From Pseudomonas sp. P8_229 (GTDB lineage: Bacteria; Pseudomonadota; Gammaproteobacteria; Pseudomonadales; Pseudomonadaceae): DNA of 64,000 bases. Position numbers and translations under genes: made by a program. The notes beneath the pieces are model-generated. The model searched no databases. It had not been told where the DNA came from and worked only from the letters and a program-made list of their open reading frames with translations. Each line of letters begins with the position of its first letter. Positions within the stretch are counted from its first letter, which is position 1. The stretch covers positions 772,501-836,500 of the forward strand of contig NZ_CP125378.1 in assembly GCF_034008635.1 (NCBI RefSeq), read 5' to 3'. This document shows positions 14,878-48,785 of this stretch, in pieces.

Positions 14878-15324
14878 TCAGTGTTGCAGAGCCGGCTTCT
14901 GCACCCCGTTGATCGGGATACGCTTGGCTTTCGCTTCTTCCGGGATCACCCGCAACAGGTCGATGCTCAGCAGACCGTTGCTCAGATCGGCGGCCTTGAT
15001 CTCGATGTGATCGGCCAGACGGAAGGACAGCTTGAAAGCACGCTGGGCAATGCCCTGATGCAGGAAGGTCACGCCTTCGTTGGCATCACGCTTGCCGCCA
15101 CTGATGGTCAGCACACCCTTCTCGACTTGCAGCTCCAGGTCTTCTTCCTGGAAACCGGCTGCCGCCACGACGATACGGTATTGATCGTCACCGTGTTTTT
15201 CCACGTTGTAGGGTGGGTAGGTGCTGCCTGGCTCGTTGCGCAGGGCGGTTTCGAACAGGTCATTGAAGCGGTCGAAACCTACCGAGGAACGGAACAGTGG
15301 CGCGAGGGAAAATGCAGTACTCAT
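14878..15324 (-). CDS. ibpA: Small heat-shock protein, IbpA type
   Basis: This 148-residue Hsp20 protein binds unfolding proteins in the cytoplasm and holds them for DnaK/ClpB. The alpha-crystallin domain runs from about residue 35 to 130 (PPYNVEKHGDDQYRIVVAAAGFQEEDLELQVEKGVLTISG), and the N-terminal segment MSTAFSLAPLFRSSVGFDRFNDLF is typical of IbpA. Upstream lie a heat-shock sigma-factor promoter and a ROSE-like hairpin over the ribosome binding site, so both transcription and translation are likely heat-controlled. A strong terminator follows. Confidence 0.95.
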   Translation of the reverse strand: MSTAFSLAPLFRSSVGFDRFNDLFETALRNEPGSTYPPYNVEKHGDDQYRIVVAAAGFQEEDLELQVEKGVLTISGGKRDANEGVTFLHQGIAQRAFKLSFRLADHIEIKAADLSNGLLSIDLLRVIPEEAKAKRIPINGVQKPALQH

Positions 15325-15332
15325 GGTTCAAA

Positions 15333-15355
15333 TCTCCTGAAAGCAATCAGCAAGG
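15333..15355 (-). promoter_or_regulatory. ROSE-like RNA thermometer hairpin
   Basis: In the transcript CCUUGCUGA and UCAGGAGA pair across the loop UUGCUU. The guanine of the UUGCU motif is left bulged opposite the AGGA ribosome binding site, the hallmark of ROSE elements in front of ibp genes. A second hairpin (CCGAA/UUCGG inside CGCGA/UCGCG) lies just upstream at about 15366-15388. Pseudomonas ibpA leaders are known to carry ROSE elements; melting has not been shown here. Confidence 0.85.
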
Positions 15356-15396
15356 TTTTGTGTCTCCGCGACCCGAATTCGGCATCGCGTAACCCT

Positions 15397-36775: not shown

Positions 36776-37273
36776 TCACTCCTCCAAAAACAACTTGATG
36801 GTTTCAGGCAGGTGCGAGCTGACTTCGTGGGTGAACCCGTTAGCGTCAGACACCCCATGTTCCAGTCGCCCATCTGCGCGCTGAATCACGTAGGGATGAT
36901 TGATCATGGGCTCACCGGTCACGTCATTGACCAGTTTCAACTTGTCCGTGAAATGCACCGGCATTGGCAGCAGACCACTGAAAGGCGCCGCTGTTACTGT
37001 GTCACCGATGATGACCGTGCCTGACCCACCAATGACCACATTGCCGTGCCCCCCGGTGCTGTCCAGGGTCGCGGCGTTCAAGCCATTGATAAACACCGTC
37101 GAGGAAACGCCGCCAGTAATGGGGCTACCGCACGCTGATTTATCAGTCATTCGCGCAGCCGCCAATCCGTCGAAATTCACATTCGGCGAGCCACTGGCAA
37201 TCGGATTGGTGCCATGTCCCGGGAGTGGGCAGGCGGTTGGGTCGGTGACGCGGGCGGCGGGTTTTCCGCTCAT
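36776..37273 (-). CDS. PAAR-domain T6SS spike-tip protein with C-terminal extension
   Basis: The first 100 residues form a PAAR domain (AARVTDPTACPLPGHGTNPIASGSPNVNFDGLAAAR, then VFINGLNAATLDS and GSGTVIIGD) that caps the VgrG spike. A further 65 residues (MPVHFTDKLKLVNDVTGEPMINHPYVIQRADGR) look like a small beta domain that may dock the effector. AAGGAG lies ahead of the start at 37273. It leads a three-gene unit with the lipase-like gene and the lipoprotein. No VgrG or other T6SS component is in the window. Confidence 0.88.
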   Translation of the reverse strand: MSGKPAARVTDPTACPLPGHGTNPIASGSPNVNFDGLAAARMTDKSACGSPITGGVSSTVFINGLNAATLDSTGGHGNVVIGGSGTVIIGDTVTAAPFSGLLPMPVHFTDKLKLVNDVTGEPMINHPYVIQRADGRLEHGVSDANGFTHEVSSHLPETIKLFLEE

Positions 37274-37356
37274 GAACAGCTCCTTGCAGTGTGGCGGGTC
37301 ATCCTTTGGGGGGCGCAAGCATGCGTGAATTTTCCGGGTGCTTCAAACCTTCAGGC

Positions 37357-45876: not shown

Positions 45877-46245
45877 ATGGGACACTCACCAACTCCCAGC
45901 GAGTTGTACAAAATCAGGGCCGCCCTGTCCGACATCTTTGTCGACACTGGGGTGGACTACCCCTACATCGCTGAGCAAATCAAAGGCTACGAGCCGGAAC
46001 TGCTCAAAAACATCCTCTACTCGGAAGTCGCCGTCGTCTGCGCCGACAACCTGGAATGCGTACTTCCCCCGATCTGGACAGGCTTCGAACCCGACTGGTT
46101 GAACCGGGAAATCGAGCAAATGCTGCTCGCCAACAGGAACAGCAGGTTTCGCCGGCAACTTCATAATCTACATACCGCCTGGCTGCGCTTCAGCTATCGG
46201 GACGTCTGGAAAGAACTGTCAGCCCACCTCAAACAATCGAGCTGA
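45877..46245 (+). CDS. DUF7079 family protein, orphan immunity-like
   Basis: This 122-residue protein closely parallels the DUF7079 gene at 48423: RAALSDIFVDTGVDYPYIAEQIKGY against WALSDAFVDTEVDYEAIARQTENY, then EVAVVCADNLECVLPPIWTGFEPDWL against EIAPVCHTNLETVIPMIWSAFNLENL, and a shared NRNSRFRRQ/RKNSYFRRQ element. The second copy is the last gene of a PAAR-effector module, so this family probably provides immunity. Here there is no effector beside it, so it would be an orphan immunity gene protecting against related toxins. Confidence 0.8.
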   Translation: MGHSPTPSELYKIRAALSDIFVDTGVDYPYIAEQIKGYEPELLKNILYSEVAVVCADNLECVLPPIWTGFEPDWLNREIEQMLLANRNSRFRRQLHNLHTAWLRFSYRDVWKELSAHLKQSS

Positions 46246-46295
46246 TACAGCCCTCCGTGGCACCGGCCTGACCGCTCGCCACAGAGGCACGCGCC

Positions 46296-46658
46296 CTACG
46301 CCTTCAACTCAACGTTATCCAACGCCTGATTCACCGCCAACTCCCCCAACATCACCACCTGCGCAATGCCCAGCAGCGTCTTGCGGTGCGAGATATCCAG
46401 CAACGCGGCGAAATCGTTGAGCATGGTGGTGGCGGAACCCAGCGACTCACTGGCGTTGGCGAGCAGGGATTCAGTGTCGTAGGCCGGGTTGGCGAGGAAC
46501 ATCGGTTTGGCGGTGTTGACGCTGGCCATGATCTGGCTGGTTGGAGTGAGGTAGTGATCGAGAGCGCGTTCGGCGGCTTCGTGGAGTTTGCGGGAATCGA
46601 GGGATTCGTAGGGGGATGCGGGGTCGGTTTCTGGTGGGTTTGGGGTTGGTTTGATCAT
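46296..46658 (-). CDS. DUF6124 (formerly DUF3077) family protein
   Basis: This 120-residue Pseudomonas-specific protein has a charged N terminus (MIKPTPNPPETDPASPYESLDSRKLHEAAERALDHYL) and a helical middle with small residues (PSSQ-like PTSQIMASVNTAKPMFLANPAYDTESLLANASESLGSATTMLNDFA). No enzymatic motif or membrane segment is seen. The start at 46658 has an excellent ribosome binding site, TTAGGAG, 8 bases upstream. That site is perfectly complementary to a segment of the long leader (46667-46858), so translation is probably controlled by RNA folding. Confidence 0.85.
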   Translation of the reverse strand: MIKPTPNPPETDPASPYESLDSRKLHEAAERALDHYLTPTSQIMASVNTAKPMFLANPAYDTESLLANASESLGSATTMLNDFAALLDISHRKTLLGIAQVVMLGELAVNQALDNVELKA

Positions 46659-46666
46659 GGATGAAA

Positions 46667-46858
46667 CTCCTAACACTTTTAGTGAAGGCTTCACTCTTTC
46701 GCTACCAAACGAAGGGTGGCGGCCATGAACAGGTTGGTAGACCGGGTGTTAGGAGCCGGCGCGCCCGAAGACGCCCTGTACATGACCACCATAGACCCCG
46801 ATCGAAAGTACGATCGGTGATGGTGACGCTGTACATCTAACACTCGGGCTACCAAACC
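46667..46858 (-). promoter_or_regulatory. Switch-like structured leader of the DUF6124 gene
   Basis: In the minus-strand transcript CUCCUAACAC (46755-46746) is a perfect 10-base complement of the ribosome-binding segment GUGUUAGGAG (46676-46667). The same central segment can instead pair with an upstream arm: 46752-46732 matches 46858-46837 over about 20 bases (GGTTTGGTAG.CCGAGTGTTAG). A second copy of TTGGTAG (46708-46702) supports the downstream fold, aided by an AGTGAAG/CTTCACT hairpin (46681-46695). The two folds exclude each other. A further apical hairpin, CCGATC/GATCGG, lies at 46798-46817. I know of no named RNA family for it. Confidence 0.7.
46691..46792 (-). CDS. Possible 33-residue leader peptide upstream of the DUF6124 gene
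   Basis: An open frame starts ATG at 46792 and ends TGA at 46691, reading MVVMYRASSGAPAPNTRSTN followed by LFMAATLRLVAKE. A weak GGGG ribosome binding site lies before it. It runs through the segment that can mask the downstream ribosome binding site, so its translation could control the fold. It could equally be chance. Confidence 0.35.
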   Translation of the reverse strand: MVVMYRASSGAPAPNTRSTNLFMAATLRLVAKE

Positions 46859-47099
46859 CGATCACTGGTTTTCAGTGACCCGAGAACGATAGAACCCACG
46901 GTCTAGACGCACAAGCCGGCGGATTCTGTCTTAGGTGTAGGGGGAGGCGCAAGGTGGTGTAGGGCCGAATCCGTGCTGACCACCACACTTTAAACAGACT
47001 GAATCTCAACCGTTTAAATTGAAGGCGCTGTACCAAGGCACGGGTCCAAGCAAGTCTGATAAAGTCGGCACCGGTTCATTCGTTGACAGGGAGTCAACC

Positions 47100-47645
47100 A
47101 TGGCAAAGCCAGCCGCACGCATCACCGATCCCATCAGTTGCCCAATGCCCGGGCACGGCCCCAAAGCCATCGCCTCCGGTTCCCCCGACGTATTCTTCGA
47201 CGGACTTGCAGCCGCCCGAAAAGGCGACGCCTGCACCTGTGGCAGCGCATTGGCATCAGCGGTTTCAGGGACAGTTTTCATAAACGGCAAAAACGCCGCG
47301 CTTGTCGATACGGTCGGCACTCATGGTGACATCATCATTGGCGGATCAGGTACGGTGATCATTGGTGATTCGCATACCCCTGCTCCCTTCATTCCACCTA
47401 CCCCGATGGTCGTTCACGGCGACTGGATCGGGTTCAAAATTCCGGCTAACGAAAACTATGAAGGACTTTCCTGCGTCGCTCATTTTGAAGACGGCTCTAA
47501 AATGGAAGGCGTGTTTGACGCAAATAACACGGTGAAATTTTCAAATCCCACGGGCAAGGCCTGTACTGCGATTGATTACGGAACTGACGAGATCCAAAGC
47601 GGCCCGTCGATTCTGGAAACTATTCTCGGCAAAATTCAGAGATAA
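47100..47645 (+). CDS. PAAR-domain T6SS spike-tip protein with C-terminal extension (second module)
   Basis: This 181-residue protein begins AKPAARITDPISCPMPGHGPKAIASGSPDVFFDGLAAARKGDACTCG and continues VSGTVFINGKNAALVDTVGTHGDIIIGGSGTVIIGD, a complete PAAR domain close in sequence to the one at 36776. About 85 further residues (VVHGDWIGFKIPANENYEGLSCVAHFEDGSKMEGVFDANN) form a beta-rich extension unlike the first copy's. AGGGAG precedes the start at 47100. It heads a module with a helical effector-like gene and a DUF7079 gene. Confidence 0.88.
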   Translation: MAKPAARITDPISCPMPGHGPKAIASGSPDVFFDGLAAARKGDACTCGSALASAVSGTVFINGKNAALVDTVGTHGDIIIGGSGTVIIGDSHTPAPFIPPTPMVVHGDWIGFKIPANENYEGLSCVAHFEDGSKMEGVFDANNTVKFSNPTGKACTAIDYGTDEIQSGPSILETILGKIQR

Positions 47646-47655
47646 GGAGTATCTC

Positions 47656-48438
47656 ATGACAGAACCAATGCTCATTACTGGTAGCTATGTCTTGAAGAGA
47701 GAGCACGATCTTCATAGCTCACCTTTAGAAATGGCAATCGCTGGAATGGAAGGCGCAGCAGCACGTTTTGCGACTGATGCTATTAAAGACGCTAATACTC
47801 GTCTGAAATATCAAGCCAAGATCAAGGAAATGTCTCGCCTGGTTGAGGCTGAGGTCATGGCAGGAAAGGTTTCAGCCAAAGACGGCGTTGCTTACTGCCA
47901 AGAAATGCGAAACAACATTATGAACGAGCACCGCAAGTTTACGTCTGCTCAGGGCGTCGCCGTTGCGGAATACATCAAGCTCAACGGCCCAACACTACAG
48001 ACCACTTTAGACAAATACGCTCACACGCTATTCAAGAAAAAGTTTGACCTTTTGACCGATGCAGAAAAGTCTAAAGTCCATTATCTGATTCTGAAAAAGT
48101 CCGGCGTAGACAATGCCAAGGTTACTCGTGGCACGAAGATGATGAAAGTCACCGGTAAGGTCGCATGGATTGTAACCGCTGCCTTCGCTGCCTCTGAGAT
48201 CTACAAAGCAGACAACAAGCCAAAAGAAGCCGGACGCCAAGGGATTATCCTGGGTGGAGGCGCCGCCGGTGGTGCGTTAGCCGGATTGAGTATTTCGATG
48301 CTGTGCGGACCCGCCGCCCCGGTCTGTGCAATCGCAGTTGTGGTTGCGGGAGGCGTCGCAGGCGGTATTCTTGGCGACGTAGTGGCGGATAGTCTGGATG
48401 AAGAACTGGAGGAGTTTTTGACATGGAACGTTCAATGA
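47656..48438 (+). CDS. Helical effector-like protein with glycine-zipper membrane segments
   Basis: This 260-residue protein is helical for about 165 residues (including ATDAIKDANTRLKYQAKIKEMSRLVEAEVMAGKVSAKDGVAYCQEM), then has hydrophobic segments rich in Gly and Ala (WIVTAAFAASEIY, GIILGGGAAGGALAGLSISMLCGPAAPVCAIAVVVAGGVAGGILGDVVA) that would insert in a membrane. It has no signal peptide. Position after a PAAR and before a DUF7079 gene suggests a T6SS toxin, perhaps pore-forming. I recognise no specific toxin family; base composition is distinctly AT-richer than the genome norm. Confidence 0.7.
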   Translation: MTEPMLITGSYVLKREHDLHSSPLEMAIAGMEGAAARFATDAIKDANTRLKYQAKIKEMSRLVEAEVMAGKVSAKDGVAYCQEMRNNIMNEHRKFTSAQGVAVAEYIKLNGPTLQTTLDKYAHTLFKKKFDLLTDAEKSKVHYLILKKSGVDNAKVTRGTKMMKVTGKVAWIVTAAFAASEIYKADNKPKEAGRQGIILGGGAAGGALAGLSISMLCGPAAPVCAIAVVVAGGVAGGILGDVVADSLDEELEEFLTWNVQ

Positions 48439-48785
48439 CGGATGAGGAACTCGCTTACGTCTATTGGGCGCTATCTGACGCTTTTGTTGATACAGAAGTT
48501 GATTACGAAGCTATTGCGCGCCAAACCGAAAACTATGACCCTGAGGAGATCAGGCGAATTCTCTATCACGAGATAGCGCCTGTCTGTCATACGAATCTTG
48601 AGACGGTGATTCCAATGATATGGTCAGCATTCAATTTAGAAAATTTGAAAGCGGACATAGAGAGCATGCTAAGCATGCGAAAAAATAGTTACTTTCGCCG
48701 CCAAAAAGACAAACTATTAATACGTTGGCTAGAATTCAGGTACAGCTATATCTGGAAAGAGATTAAAAAACACTACAAGAGTTAA
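48423..48785 (+). CDS. DUF7079 family protein, likely immunity protein
   Basis: This 120-residue soluble protein overlaps the effector-like gene by 16 bases and is translated with it (GGAG before the ATG at 48423; a second ATG at 48435 forms ATGA with the stop). The core WALSDAFVDTEVDYEAIARQTENYDPEEIRRILYHEIAPVC is the DUF7079 signature. It is the last gene of the PAAR module, and a homologue stands alone at 45877. A cytoplasmic immunity protein would be unusual for a pore former, so the toxin's true target is uncertain. Confidence 0.8.
   Translation: MERSMTDEELAYVYWALSDAFVDTEVDYEAIARQTENYDPEEIRRILYHEIAPVCHTNLETVIPMIWSAFNLENLKADIESMLSMRKNSYFRRQKDKLLIRWLEFRYSYIWKEIKKHYKS

Follow-up and report, generated by a model that had tools for sequence, protein, structure and literature searches.

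The C4 antisense RNA of phages P1 and P7 represses the phage antirepressor operon, the gene behind it being icd/ant. C4 itself is well known, also as a multi-copy RNA: the part of PMC5320573 devoted to Acinetobacter baumannii describes 21 similar Group 1 (C4-like) sRNAs in one genome, with a variable target-specifying loop, and the c4 entry of Weinberg 2010 lists the RNA in Proteobacteria and phages (PMC2864571). Two further leaders are comparable. According to the relevant section of PMC4825925, IsrK of Salmonella Gifsy-1 (RF01394) combines an a1/b1-like RNA, a C4-like RNA, and a small gene in a leader with alternative folds, a layout shared by the locus reported here. The CI RNA of satellite phage P4, named in the same paper together with seqA and seqC, is likewise an antisense RNA that is released from a leader and flanked there by complementary sites; it is said to act via transcription termination (PMC4825925).

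The leader analyzed here lies on the minus strand of a 64,000-nt stretch of the Pseudomonas sp. P8_229 chromosome (contig NZ_CP125378.1, positions 772,501 to 836,500; hereafter the window, to which coordinates refer unless stated otherwise), and it precedes a gene of the DUF6124 family. The first-pass annotation of this region knew of no fitting named RNA family, but one does fit: an Rfam scan of 46000-47500 returned the C4 antisense RNA (RF01695; 46796-46712, minus strand; 74.3 bits, cut-off 45, E 1.2e-12 in the whole window) and the c4-a1b1 region complementary to it (RF03163; 46892-46841, minus strand; 51.7 bits, cut-off 46.7). Both stay above their cut-offs over the whole window and stand in the correct order and spacing. 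On grounds of homology the leader almost certainly belongs to the C4 family. The scaffold of stems P1, P2, and P3 is the same as in the C4 of P1/P7 (RF01695, RF03163), a loop and a linker are likewise complementary both to an upstream site and to the ribosome binding site of the gene behind, and GGU stands at the expected RNase P cut (46790-46788, minus strand), which is a probable cut site by comparison with the P1/P7 section of PMC5320573; the a/b lettering order used below is also taken from that section. The locus differs from P1/P7 in that the gene behind is DUF6124 and not icd/ant, that it sits beside a PAAR/DUF7079 cluster and not in an evident phage immunity operon, and that about twenty differently coded copies are found around one chromosome. 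The antirepressor is a matter of the target, and lies outside the Rfam definition of C4.

All elements of the unit are on the minus strand. A candidate promoter read from the sequence (46914-46886; TTGTGC at 46914-46909, a 17-nt spacer, and TATCGT at 46891-46886) would place the transcription start upstream of both arms described below. When 22 loci of the P8_229 genome are aligned, its TTG and TA..T blocks are seen again, as is the upstream block around them; a stricter consensus promoter scan of 46200-47100 reported none, this candidate included. Within the c4-a1b1 region lies a1 (TTGGTAG, 46855-46849), followed by the b1 block (GTGTTAG, 46843-46837), which extends four bases beyond the RF03163 match. 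We presume that a and b are assigned to the same loops in P1. The central strand recognized in the first-pass annotation corresponds in C4 terms to the P3 loop (b', CTCCTAACAC, 46755-46746) and to the linker from P3 to the 3' arm of P1 (a', CTACCAA, 46740-46734), both placed by the Rfam alignment. Its pairing with the upstream arm (46858-46837 with 46752-46732), claimed over about 20 bases, consists of two perfect 7-base blocks, GTGTTAG with CTAACAC and TTGGTAG with CTACCAA, with a less regular middle. The claimed 10-base complement to the ribosome binding segment is likewise exact: the P3 loop is the reverse complement, 10/10, of the b2 target site GTGTTAGGAG (46676-46667), which includes the Shine-Dalgarno sequence. 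Short repeats of the upstream arm ahead of the gene are also as described, TTGGTAG recurring at 46708-46702, where it forms the a2 target site about 43-45 nt before the start codon (so that the linker is a 7/7 complement of both a1 and a2), and GTGTTAG recurring within 46676-46667. The a2 and b2 sites are assigned from the sequence together with linker/target covariation and loop/target pairing, respectively. The DUF6124 gene (46658-46296, ATG at 46658-46656) encodes 120 amino acids (PF19619, E 3e-18, 65.9 bits, cut-off 27). It is followed by a post-stop hairpin (CCTCTGTGGC ... GCCACGGAGG, 46287-46252), which by its sequence may be the transcript end; the sole terminator-like site in a scan of 46200-47100 (46253-46239) is distinct from this hairpin and overlaps it. 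When dinucleotide-preserving shuffles of the C4 and pre-start stretches were compared, 8/5000 pairs reached a perfect run of 10, so that for the window locus alone a chance origin of the run is unlikely, if not decisively so.

The genome of P8_229 (one contig, 6.365 Mb) contains 22 C4 matches, 21 of them above cut-off, and 19 DUF6124 genes above cut-off. Sixteen of the 19 have a C4 starting at most 450 nt upstream on the same strand, a count that includes L019, where the start of DUF6124 is frame-disrupted. The three genes without C4 are one behind tandem repeats that replace the leader, one fragment, and one divergent gene, L032 (about 5285183-5285368 of the genome, minus strand). This last gene has a leader of its own, matches both DUF6124 and DUF3077, and adjoins a match to the PrrF sRNA; weak DUF3077 matches with similar scores are present in several relatives. 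Six C4 copies have no over-cut-off DUF6124 gene behind them: C4 precedes a DUF3077 gene in L010, lies within an operon holding a DUF3077 gene in L009, is part of a prophage alongside Rha, primase, and tail genes in L011, precedes a Bro-N protein in L030 and an unnamed protein with a P-x-PP motif in L029, and has no reading frame behind it in L025. The window locus is one of about twenty cassettes of this genome, each with a private matching code. Scanning of 99 of the 136 flanking frames in this genome and in a second one, G019, gave 69 Pfam families, none in more than two members, so that the cassettes have no common neighbor. Upstream of a1/b1 (about 47010-46890) a block with GTTTAAA, repeated CCTACA, and CAGAATCCGCCGGCTTGTGC is common to many of the paralogs, and the sharing of the block upstream of the promoter suggests a common regulator.

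The distribution of these units was addressed in 57 genomes, P8_229 included. C4 was found in 36 of them, spanning five of 22 genera, while DUF6124 (28 genomes) and DUF3077 (26 genomes) were confined to the genus Pseudomonas; the maxima per genome were 42 C4 and 43 DUF6124. Across the 36 genomes of the genus, which are related to each other, C4 counts followed DUF6124 counts (Spearman 0.83, or 0.79 for the C4-DUF correlation after regression on genome size) and the sum of DUF6124 and DUF3077 (0.90), a sum which counts genes matching both twice. A scan for named Pseudomonas DUF6124 loci retained the 80 best out of at least 583 relatives and therefore samples close ones. In 79 of these a complete C4 ends 46-56 nt ahead of the start codon, and the eightieth (L168), truncated by its contig end, retains a partial C4; all C4 loci are related, so that locus counts here and below are not independent events. 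Of 63 DUF6124 loci in viral contigs of IMG/VR, 46 had a C4 whose end lies 30-110 nt ahead of the start, eight had one 521-547 nt upstream (in L210, the one opened, a DUF6124-like gene lies in between), and nine had none, three of these being too close to the contig end to judge; many of the IMG/VR matches sit close to a contig end and may represent flanking host DNA. Of 50,697 records of named phages, one matched DUF6124 at E 0.01, with the match at the extreme end of the sequence and a C4 ahead of it, and none of 72,556 plasmid records matched. One IMG/VR contig (L229) carries two tandem C4-DUF6124 cassettes between apparent tail genes (named by eye), with a short copy of the following gene's start between the two.

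Cognate specificity was assessed with a code score, adding the longest perfect pairing between the P3 region and the pre-start segment to that between the linker and the 30 nt that follow C4; within each genome, all C4 copies were scored against all targets. In P8_229 the cognate mean was 14.9 against 9.1 for non-cognate pairs, the largest of 10000 permutations reaching 11.9, and the cognate target was best or tied for 21 of the 22 copies (strictly best for 19). The segment limits had been set on this genome and were applied unchanged to G019 and G009, which are therefore the fairer test. Thirty of the 42 copies of G019 gave a cognate mean of 15.0 (non-cognate 9.1, permutation maximum 10.6), with the cognate best or tied in 29/30 and strictly best in 26, and 30 of the 38 copies of G009 gave 13.6 (9.2, 10.7), with 20/30 and 19; six of the ten failures in G009 are C4 copies without a matching gene behind. 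Pairing with the upstream a1/b1 was weaker, the cognate being best or tied in 16/22, 18/30, and 9/30 (P8_229, G019, and G009, respectively). Runs of at least 6 with both b1 and b2 were found in 17/22, 19/30, and 11/30 loci, and in most of these (14, 18, and 10, respectively) b1 and b2 pair with shared bases of the loop. An earlier measure, free duplex energies of C4 against whole targets, was set aside: its mean beat all 20000 permutations, yet the cognate was best in only 9/22 (post) and 8/22 (pre), the energies being too noisy because stem sequences pair too, and the loop and linker runs were used instead.

The individual contacts were then counted over 161 loci, 82 from the three genomes and 79 named. 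Linker and a2 were paired at 7/7 positions in 133 of these loci and in 23 of their 44 distinct combinations, against 4/1364 non-cognate pairs. At position 3 the 44 combinations comprised GC 17, UA 11, AU 10, CG 4, and two mismatches, i.e., 42/44 standard Watson-Crick pairs; position 7 was the weakest (30/44). For the loop and b2, 153 loci with a gene starting 40-60 nt after C4, or named, gave 137 distinct combinations, 95 with a run of at least 7 and 27 with a run of at most 5 (L026, L028, and L029 are among the poor cognate pairs), whereas 2.0% of about 3000 random non-cognate pairs reached 7. For this reason the complementarity of loop and target is decisive when taken across loci. Where the run was at least 6, the paired segment overlapped the Shine-Dalgarno zone in 103/110. 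MAFFT alignment of the leaders misplaces the variable b2 segment, and the count of paired positions was therefore kept off that alignment. The first-pass annotation had proposed a central strand for which two partners compete, including the DUF6124 ribosome binding site, and had named covariation as the check; compensatory changes were found in both helices, which are kept by them. Of six PAAR-neighboring loci that were opened, two, from two other species (G029 and G105), have a cassette in the same orientation with b1, b', and b2 all changed together relative to the window; their proteins are clearly unlike that of the window, so that the change could equally well reflect a paralog taking the place of the cassette as a stepwise process. 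Judged by covariation, pairing of C4 as an antisense with the target of its own gene appears nearly certain.

Folding predictions gave two pictures of the leader. The intact transcript of the window locus had a minimum-energy fold of -93.8 kcal/mol (z -5.2, 0/200 shuffles equally stable) with the upstream arm paired with the central strand, while the 85-nt C4 piece alone was predicted to form the three-stem P1-P2-P3 structure of the Rfam model (-39 kcal/mol, z -4.2). In an alignment of 21 of the 22 C4 copies of P8_229, 17 of 21 predicted pairs in P1 and P2 had at least one pair-preserving two-sided change; P3 was not recovered and two extra predicted pairs fall outside the C4 structure. RF03163 was above cut-off in only some of the other loci of this genome. 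In the predicted folds of 20 of its intact leaders the linker pairs upstream in 11, not upstream in nine, and downstream in none. The ribosome site was also predicted to be closed to some extent by itself. Among the 109 of 136 distinct leaders with a loop-b2 run of at least 6, the Shine-Dalgarno zone had an unpaired probability of 0.28, against 0.46 in shuffled leaders, and paired with sequence 5' of b2 at 0.68, whereas the part of b2 upstream of this zone (82 leaders) was unpaired at 0.74; b2 thus tends to sit in a loop, which suggests that C4, through P3, and the hairpin at the ribosome site first meet loop to loop. Co-folding of 20 leaders of P8_229 with C4 gave near-zero pairing of C4 at the Shine-Dalgarno zone (mean 0.03), a zone that was mostly paired already without C4, but the program cannot form loop-loop contacts and this value neither refutes nor supports the C4 model. 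This partial closure of the site by itself means that DUF6124 may be restrained by more than C4 alone.

Taken as a whole, the C4 homology, the complementarity, the coordinated change, the genome-wide repetition, and the linkage to DUF6124 computed here are best explained by a C4 antisense RNA unit controlling DUF6124, a reading we hold to be very probable. A single transcript from the candidate promoter would carry a1/b1, the C4 RNA, a2/b2, and the DUF6124 gene in this order, and C4 (~77 nt) would be excised from it, probably via RNase P. By analogy with described C4 RNAs it likely represses in trans: the P3 loop (b') would bind b2, in or near the loop of the Shine-Dalgarno hairpin, the linker (a') would bind a2 about 43-45 nt before the start, and the pairing would block translation of DUF6124. 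The a1/b1 copy would pair with the same C4 bases, either by folding back before the transcript is cut or as a short RNA sponge for C4, and this competition may tune or lift the block. The sign could also be the opposite. PMC4825925 reports for Salmonella Gifsy-1 that the long isrK transcript has no activity of its own and is activated in trans by the short IsrK, and it is conceivable, if rather unlikely, that here too the uncut leader is silent, with its site in a hairpin and C4 held by a1/b1, until an a1/b1 RNA acting in trans switches DUF6124 on. The Shine-Dalgarno zone that is more paired than in shuffles, and the predicted placing of a1/b1 on the C4 center in the intact fold, agree with such activation. 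The isrK model, on the other hand, scores 27.1 bits at the window locus, below its cut-off of 50 (which L009 of the same genome passes with 60.0 bits), and the scan of 46200-47100 found no terminator-like site after a1/b1, the place of a Rho-independent terminator in IsrK, so that a short IsrK-like RNA would be left without an obvious 3' end; the conserved C4 scaffold, moreover, is nothing that such a mechanism requires.

The first-pass annotation had favored the logic of a riboswitch, thermometer, or leader peptide, that is, one RNA refolding purely in cis in response to a ligand, temperature, or ribosome movement and without a separate C4. The very stable alternative fold of the intact leader and the intrinsic hairpin predicted around the ribosome binding site speak for the idea, but the locus matches a family of trans-acting antisense RNAs whose stem is conserved, and the P3 and linker sequences, which would have to be the constant aptamer-type parts, are the most variable between copies, the C4 scaffold being what stays constant. 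No aptamer-like conserved core was seen in the aligned leaders, and no riboswitch or thermometer family of Rfam matched 46000-47500 at E up to 1. This logic is therefore unsupported and we regard a switch in cis as very improbable. That the locus is the decayed relic of a C4 phage-immunity operon with no present function is scarcely credible. Decayed copies do exist (L025 is frameless after C4, the frames of L019 and L057 are disrupted, and six G009 copies have no matching gene), but loops and targets change in coordination, C4 stands ahead of nearly all named DUF6124 genes, and the DUF6124 gene is under purifying selection, with dN/dS of 0.15-0.28 for the window gene against six relatives and of 0.05-0.37 in 36 pairs from nine loci of one group. 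A type I toxin-antitoxin system was also considered, as an antisense RNA here would silence a small protein, and no supporting family match was found.

The proteins behind C4 were examined in the three genomes, where 70 of 78 called frames were aligned and four further loci were frameless. Of the 70, 41 match DUF6124, eight DUF3077, and two are Bro-N antirepressor-like; the gene behind the C4 of the window is a DUF6124, unlike the antirepressor operon of P1/P7. A P-x-PP motif opens the frame in 63 of 82 loci, counted with a frame picker that favored the motif, although for plus-strand loci the same proteins had come from an earlier picker that did not favor it. Starts of this kind (MIKPTPNPP, MKKLVPDPP; in the window from 46658 downwards) are common to otherwise dissimilar C4-controlled proteins, and could reflect a role in the protein, a slowing of early translation, or a trace of the RNA pairing. 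In profile comparisons DUF6124 and the DUF3077-like proteins gave a weak match of 89.5% over the C-terminal half, and DUF6124 against alignment A7 gave 84.8%, which suggests a shared C-terminal domain; a further DUF3077-like comparison at 99.9% is not independent, alignments A5 and A7 having a member in common, and the comparison with an 80-aa family (A6) gave 5.9%, i.e., no support. The AlphaFold model of DUF6124 (mean pLDDT 74.8, pTM 0.48) is good in a C-terminal helical hairpin and poor in the N-terminal third. Foldseek gave no match at E <=0.001 among the 137 PDB and 417 BFVD matches listed (E up to 10), and a sequence profile against PDB found one match, at E 1, so that no function can be derived from structure. 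Neither PADLOC on five proteins nor NCBIfam on the 70 proteins returned a match.

Two of the C4 copies of P8_229 point to the possible origin of the cassettes. Locus L009, which passes the isrK cut-off, belongs to an element in which an integrase is followed by C4, a frame of 52 aa, another frame, DUF3077, and a DUF927/primase gene; the surrounding region L254 (1738000-1756000 of the genome) shows the integrase, isrK/C4 leader, small frames, DUF3077, and DUF927/primase all in one direction, and is possibly a satellite element. In L011, inside L255, C4 is flanked by genes for a Rha regulator and a primase, and a tail assembly gene follows at a greater distance. We take the layout of these two elements to recall that of satellite phage P4. 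These phage- and satellite-type layouts, together with the weak likeness of DUF6124 and DUF3077, suggest that the cassettes of the chromosome descend from immunity operons of phages or satellites.

The literature search found no paper on DUF6124 and only a passing mention of DUF3077. The use of C4 at this scale with the DUF6124 family looks new, and the C4-DUF6124 link in Pseudomonas is probably, if not provably, new to the literature. With the Group 1 sRNAs of A. baumannii the cassettes share the multi-copy C4-type RNA and the variable target-specifying loop; the targets are left open in that part of PMC5320573, whereas here each C4 precedes its own matching gene, mostly of one family. As this arrangement is repeated up to 42 times per genome, the question of C4 targets becomes directly testable. 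For DUF6124 and DUF3077, both large paralog sets, a first handle is now that each copy would stand behind a private RNA lock, and the twenty or more antisense-target pairs, mostly without cross-match, would be useful for builders of RNA regulators. A bolder proposal, which we offer as a long shot, is that Pseudomonas genomes maintain, dispersed around the chromosome, as many as about forty mutually orthogonal cassettes that are silenced by RNA and derive from phage/satellite immunity operons, a library in which each member is a sentinel: invader RNA with the matching code would soak up one C4 and free one DUF6124/DUF3077 protein, which would stop the cell or the invader, and new codes would arise by coordinated change or whole-cassette replacement.

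The surroundings of the cassette in the window deserve mention. Two DUF7079 genes (45877-46245 and 48423-48785, both plus strand) flank the DUF6124 cassette, a PAAR gene, and a 288-aa frame for which the Pfam scan gave no match, and by gene content these surroundings look like a PAAR-linked effector/immunity cluster. Matches to the Rfam family "Pseudomonas sRNA P10" (RF01668) were found at 47120-47191 (plus strand) and 37179-37250 (minus strand), both in sense orientation within PAAR-type frames (47097-47642, plus strand, Pfam PAAR; 36776-37318, minus strand, PAAR-like by eye), so that P10 may be coding sequence or an RNA derived from PAAR mRNAs. The sole thermometer match in the window, to ROSE_3, lies at 15319-15391 on the minus strand (66 bits, cut-off 43).
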